This document shows, one piece after another, positions 18,181 through 21,307 of a stretch of 21,307 nt of DNA (within the stretch, counting starts at the first letter, position 1; each line of letters begins with the position of its first letter). The DNA is from a virus. A program made the translations under genes and the position numbers. The stretch covers positions 1 to 21,307 of the IMG/VR virus record IMGVR_UViG_3300044678_001478. One strand, 5' to 3'. The notes beneath the pieces were generated by a model. It had not been told where the DNA came from. It did not search any database and worked only from the letters and a program-made list of their open reading frames with translations.

Positions 18181-18301
18181 GGCAGGGTGTGTCACCACCC
18201 CGCCGGCCGCCGCAACCCACAGGCATGCACCTGTGAGCCTTGGCCAAGGCCTACCCACCACGCGCGTGGCGGGCCGAAGCCTACCAGATTCGAGGGCTCA
18301 C
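18181..18301 (+). promoter_or_regulatory. Highly structured leader upstream of the methyltransferase gene
   Basis: Several stems can be drawn in 120 bases ending at the ATG. GGC-A-GGGTG (18181-18189) pairs with CACCC-C-GCC (18196-18204). CACAGG pairs with CCTGTG around 18218-18235. GTGAGCC (18233-18239) pairs with GGCTCAC (18295-18301), closing a domain that contains AGGC/GCCT (247-250 with 279-282 of the 18 kb block) and the hairpin CCC-A-CCACG / CGTGG-C-GGG (18254-18273). The closing stem covers part of the GAGGG that would serve as ribosome binding site. A cis-acting RNA or autoregulatory site is inferred; I do not recognise a known riboswitch class. Confidence 0.45.
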
Positions 18302-18302
18302 C

Positions 18303-19094
18303 ATGTCTGCACCCATCATTCCCTGGCTCGGCGGCAAGCGCCGCCTGGCCGATCGCCTCATTCCACTCTTCCCGCCCCATGAGTGCTACGTCGAGTTGTT
18401 CTGCGGCGGCGCCGCGCTCTATTTCCTGCGCCCGGTGCCGGCATCGGTCGAGATCCTCAACGACGTCAACGGCGAGCTGATCAACCTCTATCGCGTGGTG
18501 CAGCACCACCTCGAAGAGTTCGTCCGCCAGTTCAAGTGGGCGCTGACCAGTCGCCAGGTGTTCAAGTGGCTGCAGGACACCAAGCCCGAGACGCTCACCG
18601 ACATCCAGCGCGCCGCGCGCTTCTACTACCTGCAGCACCACGCCTTCGGTGGTCGCGTCGAAAGCCAGTCCTTCGGCACCTCCACCACGGTGCCAGCGAT
18701 CAACCTGCTGCGTATCGAGGAGAGCCTCTCGGCCGCACACCTGCGCCTGGCCAACGGCACCACCGTCGAGAACCTGCCCTGGCTGGATTGCCTGACACGC
18801 TACGATCGCGCGCACACCTTCTTCTACGCCGACCCGCCCTACTGGCAGACCGAGGGCTATGGCGTGCCGTTTCCCTTCAGCGAATACCAGGCGCTGGCCA
18901 GCGCCATGCGCACCATCAAGGGCCGCATGATGGTCAGCATCAACGACCACCCGCAGATCCGCGAGGCCTTCGAGGGCCTTGTGATGCACGATCTGGAGAT
19001 CACCTACTCGGTCGGTACCGCCGACTCGCACCGCGCCAGCCGCGAGCTGGTGATCACCAACTGGGAGATCTCGGACCTGGGGCAATTATTTTGA
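18303..19094 (+). CDS. D12-class DNA N6-adenine methyltransferase
   Basis: This 263-residue protein transfers methyl from S-adenosylmethionine to adenine in DNA. Motifs appear in D12/Dam order: PWLGGKRRLADRLIPLFP (motif X, residues 7-24), YVELFCGGAALYF (motif I, SAM binding), NDVNGELINLY, and FFYADPPYW with catalytic DPPY (motif IV). The C-terminal RELVITNWE is also usual. It starts at ATG 18303; an in-frame upstream extension to 18240 begins with TTG inside the structured leader and is unlikely. There is no restriction enzyme gene next to it, so it is an orphan phage methylase, probably protecting phage DNA from host restriction or influencing regulation. GATC is the most common target of this class but the specificity cannot be read directly. 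Confidence 0.92.
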   Translation: MSAPIIPWLGGKRRLADRLIPLFPPHECYVELFCGGAALYFLRPVPASVEILNDVNGELINLYRVVQHHLEEFVRQFKWALTSRQVFKWLQDTKPETLTDIQRAARFYYLQHHAFGGRVESQSFGTSTTVPAINLLRIEESLSAAHLRLANGTTVENLPWLDCLTRYDRAHTFFYADPPYWQTEGYGVPFPFSEYQALASAMRTIKGRMMVSINDHPQIREAFEGLVMHDLEITYSVGTADSHRASRELVITNWEISDLGQLF

Positions 19095-19164
19095 CTGGAA
19101 CCGCTTGACTTGTGCCGGCACCAGAGCGTTACTGCCGACGTCGCCAACGCGCCCGGAGCCCACC

Positions 19165-19335
19165 ATGGACCAGACCCTGCAGCAGATCGCCAAAACCGCC
19201 CTCGATATCGATACCCTGGAGACGCAGCGCTCTGACCGTCTGGACTTCCACGACGTGGCCGTCTGGCGCCTCAAGGCGGCCCTGGAAGCGGCCTACCAGG
19301 CTGGCCAGCAGGCGGCTGCCGGGAGTCGGTCATGA
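19165..19335 (+). CDS. DUF6900-like small protein
   Basis: This 56-residue protein starts at ATG 19165 after a modest GGAG. It reads MDQTLQQIAKTALDIDTLET, then QRSDRLDFHDVAVWRLKAAL, and ends in a short Ala/Gln tail. The pattern (IA...L.IDTLET..SD.LDFH.VAVW....AL..AY.AG) is the DUF6900 small-protein pattern seen in phages, plasmids and integrative elements. The function is unknown. It overlaps the next start by four bases (ATGA), and it belongs to the accessory block between methylase and integrase. Confidence 0.75.
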   Translation: MDQTLQQIAKTALDIDTLETQRSDRLDFHDVAVWRLKAALEAAYQAGQQAAAGSRS

Positions 19336-19910
19336 GCCAATACACCAGCGGGGAATTCACGGTGGACCAGATCGGATTCATCCAGATCGCCGACGTCGAG
19401 GTCCTGGCCGCCGTTGCGCGCGGCGAGATCGACCTCAACCAAATCGCCCGCGAGGAGCTGGCCAGCCGGGGGATGAGCGATCAGGGACGGTGGGTGGGGT
19501 TTGATGCTGCAAAAAAATTCTCGAAAGGACTTGACTTGTTCGCAAACGCGAACTATGATCTAATCATAGTGAATCGCAACCGGCGGTTCCTACTCCAGGA
19601 GAACACCATGAACACACAACTTCAAGCCTTCGCAGTCGCCACCAACAACGAGCTGTTCGATGTCGACTACAACGGCGGCGAGTGGATGATCGAAGCGGTC
19701 GAAACGCACGAGACGATCGACCAGTTCGTGCAATCTTCAAACGGCTACAACGAGTGCACCCGCGAGAAGTTCGGCGAGATCGCCGGCTTCAAATTCGTGG
19801 CCTTCAGTCAAGTTCAGCCGCGCAAGGGCGATCAGCGCCGCCAGCTCTCGGTGATCGACTTCGGTGATGTACGCTACGCGCTCAATTGCGATCTGACCGA
19901 CTTCACATGA
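19332..19910 (+). CDS. Conserved accessory protein, possibly fused in frame to the downstream gene
   Basis: From ATG 19332 the first 60 residues (SQYTSGEFTVDQIGFIQIAD, then EVLAAVARGEIDLNQIA and GRWVGFDAA) match a short protein family common in mobile elements, which usually ends soon after the WVGF block. Here the frame has no stop: it passes through a poly-A tract, the strong promoter at 19531-19559 and the ribosome binding site at 19597, and continues in frame through the gene at 19608, giving a 192-residue ORF. The natural stop may have been lost by a deletion or recombination joining two units. Whether the full fusion is made cannot be told. The N-terminal 60 residues are confidently coding; the linker residues (about 62-92) do not look like a conserved domain. 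Confidence 0.55.
   Translation: MSQYTSGEFTVDQIGFIQIADVEVLAAVARGEIDLNQIAREELASRGMSDQGRWVGFDAAKKFSKGLDLFANANYDLIIVNRNRRFLLQENTMNTQLQAFAVATNNELFDVDYNGGEWMIEAVETHETIDQFVQSSNGYNECTREKFGEIAGFKFVAFSQVQPRKGDQRRQLSVIDFGDVRYALNCDLTDFT
19531..19569 (+). promoter_or_regulatory. Strong sigma-70 promoter with two palindromic operators
   Basis: TTGACT (19531-19536) and TATGAT (19554-19559) are separated by exactly 17 bases. The palindrome GTTCGCAAACGCGAAC (19538-19553) fills the spacer. A second palindrome, CTATGATCTAATCATAG (19553-19569), covers the -10 box and the start region. This is the layout of a repressed promoter driving the 19608 gene and the HTH gene behind it. The HTH protein encoded downstream is the natural candidate to bind one or both sites. 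Confidence 0.85.
19608..19910 (+). CDS. Unrecognised 100-residue acidic protein; anti-CRISPR candidate
   Basis: ATG 19608 follows AGGAG (19597-19601) and lies about 40 bases after the expected transcription start of the strong promoter, so this start is likely used even though the frame is open upstream. The protein begins MNTQLQAFAVATNNELFDVD and contains NGGEWMIEAVETHETIDQF, YNECTREKFGEIAGFKFVAF and VIDFGDVRYALNCDLTDF. It has 16 acidic against 8 Lys/Arg residues, no membrane segment and no motif I know. It is followed, with a four-base overlap (ATGA), by an Aca2-like HTH gene. Small, acidic, family-less proteins directly before an aca gene are typical anti-CRISPRs, so this is a candidate by association; activity and CRISPR type are unknown. 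Alternatives are another anti-defence protein or an unrelated early protein. Confidence 0.75.
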   Translation: MNTQLQAFAVATNNELFDVDYNGGEWMIEAVETHETIDQFVQSSNGYNECTREKFGEIAGFKFVAFSQVQPRKGDQRRQLSVIDFGDVRYALNCDLTDFT

Positions 19911-20365
19911 CCCCTGCCACCCTGCAGGCGCTGCGGCGCCTGCTCTTCTTCACTGTCGAGGAGGCCGCTGCGATGATCGGCGGTGTTTCGCCTCGCTCGT
20001 GGCAATTCTGGGAGCGTGGCGAACGGACCATTCCGGCCGATGTGATCGAAACCGTCCAGCGCCTGCTGGCCTGGCGTGCCCAGGCGCTGGCTACGGCTCA
20101 AAACGCCATGGCCGAGATTCAGGCCCAGCACGGCCCGGCTGAGGGTATTCGGCTGGTGTGGTACCAGTCCGCCGACGATTGGGCCACGGTGCCAGGATTT
20201 GATCCGCTGCTGTGGCGTCCGCATTGCTCGGTAGCCGCTGACCTGGCCGCGAATCATGGCGCGGAGCTGGTGGCGTTCGATGGTCCGGCCTACGCGGCCT
20301 GGCTCGGGAAGCGCAAGGACTCTGAGTCGATGCGGGGTGCGTGGGCGGCGAATTCTTGTCAGTAA
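19907..20365 (+). CDS. Aca2-like HTH transcriptional regulator (DUF1870-like)
   Basis: This 152-residue protein has an N-terminal helix-turn-helix: LQALRRLLFFTVEEAAAMIG (residues 6-25) then VSPRSWQFWERGERTIPADV (27-46), where the VSxRSWQxWE recognition-helix pattern matches the Aca2 family as I remember it. The C-terminal dimerisation region also fits: RLVWYQSADDW, then WRPHCSVAADLAANHGAELV, matching the Aca2 order (RLxxY...D, WR...SVAA, HA.L). Aca proteins repress their own acr-aca operon by binding inverted repeats at its promoter, and two such repeats exist at 19538-19569. The last 25 residues extend beyond the usual Aca2 length. The stop codon lies inside the first att arm-like repeat. 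A general DUF1870/YdiL-type regulator is the alternative. Confidence 0.82.
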   Translation: MTPATLQALRRLLFFTVEEAAAMIGGVSPRSWQFWERGERTIPADVIETVQRLLAWRAQALATAQNAMAEIQAQHGPAEGIRLVWYQSADDWATVPGFDPLLWRPHCSVAADLAANHGAELVAFDGPAYAAWLGKRKDSESMRGAWAANSCQ

Positions 20366-20368
20366 TTC
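20357..20368 (+). repeat. att-flanking 12-bp motif, copy 1
   Basis: TGTCAGTAATTC; it contains the stop codon of the Aca2-like gene (TAA at 20363-20365). Candidate arm-type integrase site on the left of the tRNA-like core. Confidence 0.75.
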
Positions 20369-20394
20369 CAACGAGAACGGCGCAACCACGCGGG

Positions 20395-20400
20395 TATAAT
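20395..20400 (+). promoter_or_regulatory. Perfect -10 hexamer before the tRNA-like sequence
   Basis: TATAAT at 20395-20400, preceded by GGG rather than an extended -10 TG, lies 35 bases before the tRNA-like 5' end. No good -35 is seen at 16-18 bases, so the promoter call is tentative. Confidence 0.35.
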
Positions 20401-20408
20401 AGCTGCCT

Positions 20409-20420
20409 GAATTACTGACA
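20409..20420 (-). repeat. att-flanking 12-bp motif, copy 2 (inverted)
   Basis: GAATTACTGACA, reverse complement of copy 1. It is part of the 16-mer CTGAATTACTGACAGA (20407-20422), which recurs exactly at 20549-20564. Confidence 0.75.
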
Positions 20421-20435
20421 GAATATAACTAAGTC

Positions 20436-20507
20436 GCTGTTTTGTCGGGTTTTGGCGTCTGCTTCGTAATCAGTAGGTCGCCAGTTCGATTCCGGCCAAC
20501 AGCACCA
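20436..20507 (+). tRNA. tRNA-Thr(CGT)-like sequence with degenerate D-arm; probable att core
   Basis: A 72-base tRNA shape can be drawn: acceptor GCTGTTT (20436-20442) with CAACAGC (20497-20503, six of seven pairs), discriminator A, then encoded CCA (20505-20507). The T-arm has stems GCCAG/CCGGC around TTCGATT (one mismatch), the variable loop is five bases, and the anticodon loop is TTCGTAA (anticodon CGT, Thr) on a weak stem with end mismatches. The D-arm is reduced to about 15 bases without a recognisable AGCTCAG...GGTAGAGC region. The 3' half, from the anticodon loop on, is tRNA-like enough to act as the identity segment for integration into a host tRNA-Thr gene. A working tRNA is doubtful; a decayed or phage-carried tRNA fragment is more likely. 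Confidence 0.5.
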
Positions 20508-20515
20508 ATACTTCA

Positions 20516-20546
20516 ACGGGTTAGCATTGCGCTAGCCCGTTTTTTT
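20516..20546 (+). terminator. Rho-independent terminator after the tRNA-like sequence
   Basis: ACGGGTTAGC (20516-20525) pairs with GCTAGCCCGT (20531-20540) across ATTGC, with one G-T wobble, followed by seven T (20540-20546). It works on the plus strand only; on the minus strand no T-run follows. It would end both the tRNA-like transcript and the acr-type operon, and shields the convergent integrase gene. The integrase stop codon (20532-20534) lies within the stem-loop. Confidence 0.88.
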
Positions 20547-21307
20547 GTCTGAATTACTGACAGATGTCAGTAATTCCGCCTCCTCTGGCCGCATCGGGAT
20601 CGATCCCGGTAGCGTGTCGATTCGCACCTCGTAATGACGTGCGGTTGTGCGCGGGTCGGTATGCAATCCGCGTCGGCGCGCCTCCTCGAGCGTGGCTGCC
20701 TGGTTGAGGCTCGTCTTGCGCAGATCCCTCATCTGCCAGTCGATGAAGGCTTCGCCAATATCTTCCCTCGCCTTGATTCTGGCGTCGTCGAATCGATTGC
20801 GCAACATGGCGTGGGTTACTCGCTGGCCCTCGTCCGTCTGCAGCAGCCAGGGGCCGGTCGCCTTCCGCTTGCGTTCCTTCAGTTCCTCGATCAGCGCCTT
20901 CAGGTCGCGCTCGACGGCCATCAGGCCGAGCGTTCCCGTCTTGGTCGATCGGTACCGCAGTGCATCCTTCTTGTCGCCGTCAGTCACCACGTCTGTGCGC
21001 ATGATTCTGGTGATGTCGCTGACCCGTTGGCCGATGACGATGTCCAGACGCATCCAGTCTCGCAGCACCTGGTCGCCGCGATCGTAGATCGCCCAGAACA
21101 TTTCCGCCGTGACCAGGACTGTGCGCACTTCTTCGGCGTAGCCTTCGACGCCGGTGCAAGGGTTGGGTAGGTCCGTCTTGCCGCGTGATCGCGCCCAGTT
21201 CCACATGCGCGAGAGCGTGGCCTTGATGCGGTTGGCCAGCACCGGCGTGCCGGCCAGTTCGTCAAGCAGCTTGCCGACGTGTACCGGCTTGATCGTGGCC
21301 ATGGGCG
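20532..21307 (-). CDS. Tyrosine integrase, N-terminus beyond window
   Basis: The minus-strand frame runs off the right edge; 256 residues are visible from an internal Met. The start of this part (KLLDELAGTPVLANRIKATL, then MWNWARSRG) belongs to the core-binding domain, so about 100 N-terminal residues are missing. Catalytic residues in visible numbering are Arg93 (VIGQRVSDI), Lys121 (YRSTKTG), Arg195 in MRDLRKTS (the usual His is Arg192, a known variation), His214 (GLHTDPRTTARHY) and Tyr224 as nucleophile. It should integrate and excise the phage at the adjacent att site. It converges on the tRNA-like/terminator region, and its last codons cross the 26-bp palindrome and T-run, so the C-terminal SVSNSDKKTG is dictated by att DNA. 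Confidence 0.92.
   Translation of the reverse strand, partial: PMATIKPVHVGKLLDELAGTPVLANRIKATLSRMWNWARSRGKTDLPNPCTGVEGYAEEVRTVLVTAEMFWAIYDRGDQVLRDWMRLDIVIGQRVSDITRIMRTDVVTDGDKKDALRYRSTKTGTLGLMAVERDLKALIEELKERKRKATGPWLLQTDEGQRVTHAMLRNRFDDARIKAREDIGEAFIDWQMRDLRKTSLNQAATLEEARRRGLHTDPRTTARHYEVRIDTLPGSIPMRPEEAELLTSVSNSDKKTG
20551..20576. repeat. 26-bp palindrome made of motif copies 3 and 4
   Basis: GAATTACTGACA (20551-20562), two bases GA, then the exact reverse complement TGTCAGTAATTC (20565-20576). It lies inside the last codons of the integrase gene. Together with copies 1 and 2 it frames the tRNA-like core and is a candidate arm-binding or excisionase/operator site. Confidence 0.85.

Follow-up and report, generated by a model that had tools for sequence, protein, structure and literature searches.

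The window, by which we mean the whole stretch of DNA analysed (21,307 nucleotides), is a 21.3-kb virus contig. It carries capsid, tail and lysis-side genes together with a D12 adenine methyltransferase gene, a small gene at 19332, a two-gene operon, a tRNA-Thr site and an integrase gene on the minus strand. Among the matches listed, those of the tail and capsid genes to phage records are all <45% identical. An earlier note on this DNA had described a promoter with two palindromes, a short acidic open reading frame and an overlapping helix-turn-helix (HTH) gene, and each of these was found at the coordinates given there. The features of the region are as follows.

18240-19094: D12 adenine methyltransferase gene, located 5' of the candidate (PF02086, E 1.1e-23)
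19332-19535, plus strand: upstream small gene, phrog_22970-like (PHROG E 3e-15)
19531-19559, plus strand: sigma-70-like promoter TTGACT-N17-TATGAT (-35 at 19531-19536, -10 at 19554-19559)
19538-19553, unstranded: predicted Aca2 operator GTTCGC-AAAC-GCGAAC, which occupies the promoter spacer
19552-19570, unstranded: second perfect palindrome, ACTATGAT-CTA-ATCATAGT, with 8-nt arms
19571-19589, plus strand: 5'UTR hairpin GAAUCGC-AACCG-GCGGUUC, 7 pairs, immediately 5' of the ribosome-binding site
19608-19910, plus strand: candidate anti-CRISPR gene, encoding an acidic protein of 100 aa whose family has not been described
19907-20365, plus strand: predicted aca2, an HTH repressor with a C-terminal dimerisation domain (152 aa)
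20459-20507, plus strand: attP core, the 3' end of tRNA-Thr(CGT), matching a tRNA-Thr gene at 96% identity over 49 nt
20515-20541, plus strand: intrinsic-terminator-like stem-loop, 3' of the operon

The stop of the 19608-19910 frame and the start of the 19907-20365 frame overlap as ATGA. Since the tRNA-Thr(CGT) attachment site lies immediately 3' of aca2, the operon is placed at the prophage end. A D12-class adenine methyltransferase, called by sequence only, is also found 5' of the candidate gene in a related locus, L004 (2196-3050); perhaps the methyltransferase genes upstream in the two loci are part of a counter-defence region.

The regulator and its operator

The HTH gene at 19907-20365 encodes 152 residues, among them the VSPRSWQFWE and WRPHCSVAA blocks on which the earlier assignment to Aca2 was based. 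That assignment holds by the family model, by comparison with solved structures and by an exact match to a known Aca2 operator. The PF08965 (Aca2_YdiL) match (E 1.5e-19) spans residues 1-118 of the protein and positions 1-114 of the 118 in the model, taking in both domains. Among solved structures the best match is Aca2 7ezy (E 8.9e-18, 67.7 bits), followed by further Aca2 entries (E about 8e-13) and then by chromosomal YdiL (E 8.6e-5, 25.5 bits). By this comparison the protein resembles phage Aca2 more than it does the chromosomal YdiL, and it does not show the grouping with chromosomal regulators that had been considered as a possible objection. Arginine 30, which is needed for autoregulation by the Aca2 of phage ZF40 (PMC8434428), is invariant in the Aca2 alignment, the window protein included. 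Judged from its sequence, 19907-20365 is a gene for full-length Aca2.

The promoter at 19531-19559, with a spacer of 17 bp, is the sole sigma-70-like site detected in 19000-20640. Both palindromes (19538-19553 and 19552-19570) are perfect. The exact sequence GTTCGCN4GCGAAC occurs once in the window, where 0.19 matches would be expected with one mismatch allowed, and its operator score was unmatched by any of 500 shuffles of the 130-bp leader. The ZF40 promoter reads TTGCTT-GTTCGC-GATT-GCGAAC-A-TATAAT and that of the window TTGACT-T-GTTCGC-AAAC-GCGAAC-TATGAT; the half-sites are identical and in both cases lie inside the 17-bp spacer between -35 and -10. Aca2 binds the ZF40 repeat, IR1 (PMC8434428), and the half-sites of the window operator recur in a probe, given in PMC9410881, to which Aca2 binds. 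From half-sites and position identical to those of ZF40, 19538-19553 is recognisable as an Aca2 operator. The operon thus has, inside its own core promoter, the inverted-repeat operator that marks an Aca2 repressor.

The palindrome at 19552-19570 covers the -10 box and the start region. It is unlike the Aca2 site and is possibly a site for another regulator. The 5'UTR hairpin at 19571-19589 has an RNA fold energy of -10.9 kcal/mol (z -1.95), and the leaders of ZF40, CFP3 and Pm86 have hairpins at the matching position. Aca2 of ZF40 reportedly binds such a hairpin in mRNA as well.

The closest described arrangement is thus shared with the acrIF8-aca2 locus of Pectobacterium phage ZF40, in which a small cargo gene precedes aca2, the pair adjoins an integrase gene, IR1 (GTTCGC-N4-GCGAAC) lies between -35 and -10 and a second hairpin stands before the ribosome-binding site. 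It differs in that the window cargo is unrelated in sequence to AcrIF8, the Aca2 proteins are about 37% identical and the second palindrome of the window is unlike its first.

Exchange of cargo behind related Aca2 genes is evident. In the phage locus L041, where Aca2 is 62% identical to that of the window, the promoter is near-identical, the operator identical and aca2 likewise overlaps the cargo gene, but the cargo is an unrelated 90-aa protein (2232-2504), itself a second candidate anti-CRISPR. In L040 the Aca2-like gene (64% identical) overlaps a preceding ATP-grasp R2K gene (1704-2504). This suggests that Aca2 controls a different kind of cargo there, and it means that the Aca2 clade of the window does not regulate anti-CRISPRs alone. 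The more distant Aca2 loci L043 and L049 have AcrIF6 and AcrIF8 homologues with Aca2-type operators, and one genome carries two Aca2-like genes behind two different cargos. Known acr genes are found upstream of just 3% of Aca2-like proteins (PMC9410906). Small open reading frames precede Aca2-like genes in L083 (1055-1489), L090 (148-456), L042 (2184-2504) and L047 (2162-2446), those of L042 and L047 being without a Pfam match; these are possible further candidates.

The nucleotide homology of the phage backbone to L063 and L064 (89% identity) stops at 19504, that of the cargo extends over about 19626-19905, and that of aca2 to L041 starts at 19906. Because the breaks at 19504 and 19905/19906 coincide with gene borders, gene-sized shuffling is confirmed.

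The 100-residue protein and its family

The product of 19608-19910 has 100 residues, 16 of them acidic and 8 basic, with a pI of 4.38. It has no match of weight in Pfam, NCBIfam, PHROG, PADLOC, PDB or Foldseek; in particular, Foldseek against PDB and viral models gave nothing significant, and tblastn returned 0 homologues in phage and plasmid records. A PHROG 8066 match (E 0.0018) was set aside, since the profile within which it falls is 522 positions long and has no known function, and fold matches to DcrB, PsbP and AcrID1 were dismissed (best E 0.09, low TM-scores). The earlier note recognised no known Acr in the protein; the sequence and fold searches of these databases agree, as they match it to no described Acr family. 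It had also allowed for a family with another proven function, of which the family and fold searches found none, and the same family, PDB and fold searches gave no match to a known anti-restriction protein.

The family is found in about ten distinct places. The relatives, 48-74% identical, comprise about nine distinct virus-contig sequences together with those of a Xylophilus metagenome bin and of another genome belonging to that order. Every member is acidic (pI 4.4-5.5), and an alignment of twelve of them reveals a conserved core, ATNNELxDxxYxGGxWM..., SVVDxGDxR. The AlphaFold2 model (pLDDT 93.7) predicts a helix, a strand, a helix, a four-strand meander and a short helix. In the Xylophilus bin (L008, 1153-6534) the family domain lies near the C-terminus of a protein of 1793 aa that also has InPase and DarA_N domains. 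This member thus belongs to a polyvalent protein of the DarA type (Iyer et al. 2017, PMC5512222), whereas that of the window is stand-alone, with aca2 and an Aca2 operator. In L012, L013, L014, L016 and L018 the family members lie within clusters of small open reading frames, with a leader sequence repeated before several genes; these clusters also hold YD-repeat-like small proteins and repeated 'MHLPSGLGDEHSACSIAAINLALSG' proteins.

The regulator behind the family changes as well. It is Aca2 in the window and an Aca10-family gene in L007, directly behind, and in L020 and L004, one or two small genes further on; comparison with Aca10 (PDB 7xi5) gives E 1.4e-16 for L004, 8.7e-20 for L007 and 1.1e-10 for L020. 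An overlapping HTH_17 protein follows the member in L023, an overlapping 63-aa GAGRK-type protein that in L021, and a longer GAGRK relative, also overlapping, that in L019. The GAGRK-type proteins, which have no Pfam match, are putative DNA-binding proteins. No recognised regulator lies directly behind the members of L012-L018.

The operators follow the regulators. An exact Aca2 site is found upstream in the window and in L041 (0/500 shuffles each) and an Aca10-like site in L004 (14/19 positions, 0/500 shuffles), L007 (13/19, 2/500) and, weakly, L020 (12/19, 19/500). The remaining loci compared have neither an Aca2 nor an Aca10-like site upstream. Operator type therefore tracks regulator type across the family loci, and the family is a naturally occurring example of a cargo that passes between control by Aca2 and control by Aca10. 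The survey for homologues ahead of other aca genes, which had been proposed earlier, accordingly turned up aca10 as well as aca2. Such a recurrent position before aca genes of different families is the guilt-by-association sign of an anti-CRISPR. Exchange of this kind is a trait of acr-aca operons, and one acr has been found with different aca genes (PMC9410906). Aca10-like HTH genes are common in plasmids too, so that the Aca10 linkage is supportive rather than proof.

Another close described system is the acrIC7-acrIC6-aca10 operon of Pseudomonas citronellolis. It is comparable in that the homologues of the 100-aa protein in L004, L007 and L020 stand before Aca10-family genes with similar operators; the window itself differs in having Aca2. 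L004 (3953-3969) and L020 (1300-1316) have in common a hairpin in the 5'UTR, upstream of the ribosome-binding site; the two are identical in the CGGTA loop and differ by one compensatory change from G-C to T-A. From these hairpins, Aca10 might also act on RNA.

Probable role in counter-defence

Both host genomes with family members encode type I-C Cas genes, namely Cas5c and Cas8c in each, Cas7c in G001 and Cas1c in G330. Cas8c is found in 41 of 399 genomes of the order, and its presence in both hosts has a probability of about 0.01 by chance (n=2). Two genomes underlie the type I-C link, and at least one is a metagenome bin, in which the cas1 match is truncated. The self-targeting spacers envisaged in the earlier note did not appear when each prophage region was compared with its own genome: in G330 this gave repeats and one 49-nt match of the attachment-site type only, and in G001 nothing spacer-like. 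A CRISPR array with the usual I-C repeat end was not found in the two host genomes. Aca10 is known from the operon of AcrIC6 and AcrIC7, inhibitors of type I-C and I-E (PMC7913775). Type I-C or I-E is favoured as target because the hosts carry I-C genes and because Aca10 has AcrIC6 and AcrIC7 as partners; we hold this subtype assignment to be somewhat less likely than not.

We read the region as an operon cassette of the acr-aca2 type beside the attachment site of a temperate phage. A counter-defence role for the 100-aa protein is very probable, and it is somewhat better than an even guess that its target is the host CRISPR-Cas system. The acr-aca operon is itself a known kind, and its cargo here constitutes a new candidate family. 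From the gene layout, the identity of Aca2 and its operator, and the exchange of regulator and cargo observed among relatives, we infer repression, CRISPR inhibition and subtype along the following lines. Upon infection, the strong, still unrepressed promoter would produce a burst of the acidic protein, which would inhibit host CRISPR-Cas, with type I-C, as far as the evidence goes, the likeliest target. The shared transcript would also yield Aca2, which would then occupy GTTCGCN4GCGAAC between -35 and -10, shutting the promoter, and which may in addition block translation by binding the 5'UTR hairpin.

The protein could instead serve another counter-defence function, for example as an anti-restriction factor, under the same Aca2/Aca10 control. 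Any early counter-defence gene would profit from a burst followed by shut-off, a D12 adenine methyltransferase gene lies just upstream in the window and another upstream in L004, and a close Aca2 relative appears to drive an ATP-grasp gene. Moreover, in L008 the family forms a C-terminal domain beside InPase and DarA_N; DarA is a defence-against-restriction protein packaged in the head of phage P1 (PMC5512222), and the presence of the domain inside a DarA-type polyvalent protein makes another counter-defence target possible. However, neither sequence nor fold ties the family to a known anti-restriction protein, it is associated with two different Aca families that occur in known anti-CRISPR operons, and the hosts are enriched for type I-C. 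We regard this alternative as rather unlikely.

The polyvalent protein also admits a model in which an anti-CRISPR domain is used in two ways, early as a protein of its own controlled by Aca2 or Aca10 and, packaged in the virion, as a domain of a DarA-type protein. This is a speculative proposal that we think will probably prove wrong. If true, the domain injected with the DNA could block CRISPR before any phage gene is expressed, and the possible link between anti-CRISPRs and packaged polyvalent proteins is relevant to the survival of the first phage at a stage when no anti-CRISPR can yet be expressed. As for CRISPR inhibition by the stand-alone protein, its confirmation would establish an anti-CRISPR family with a fold unmatched in the PDB, possibly directed against type I-C, with test genes at hand from about ten phages.

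It appears very unlikely that the two genes have nothing to do with host defence and form an ordinary autoregulated accessory pair of a prophage or a unit of toxin-antitoxin type. The Aca2 type of HTH is common to the antitoxin MqsA, and the gene order resembles that of type II toxin-antitoxin units (PMC9410906). Yet the partner of the family is freely swapped (Aca2, Aca10, HTH_17, GAGRK) or absent, or the domain is built into a polyvalent protein. A specific toxin-antitoxin pair would not withstand such changes, and the 100-aa protein is small and acidic and has no toxin family match.

No stop closes the upstream gene before 19608, so that one open frame extends from 19332 to 19910 and reads as 192 aa. 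It is scarcely credible that this fusion, rather than a separate 100-aa protein, is the true product: the window and two contigs identical to it do lack a stop codon between the parts, but the joined frame takes in the promoter, the operator and the ribosome-binding site, proteins related to the first part end near 19520 while those related to the second start near 19608 without it, and backbone homology ends at 19504, before the second part. The upstream gene has the motif 'ELASRGxxxxGxWVGFxxA', and its relatives stop 2-8 residues past the WVGFxxAR motif, near 19520. The 192-aa frame thus arose because the upstream gene lost its stop at the cassette border; the fusion is incidental, the joined part being promoter and operator DNA.
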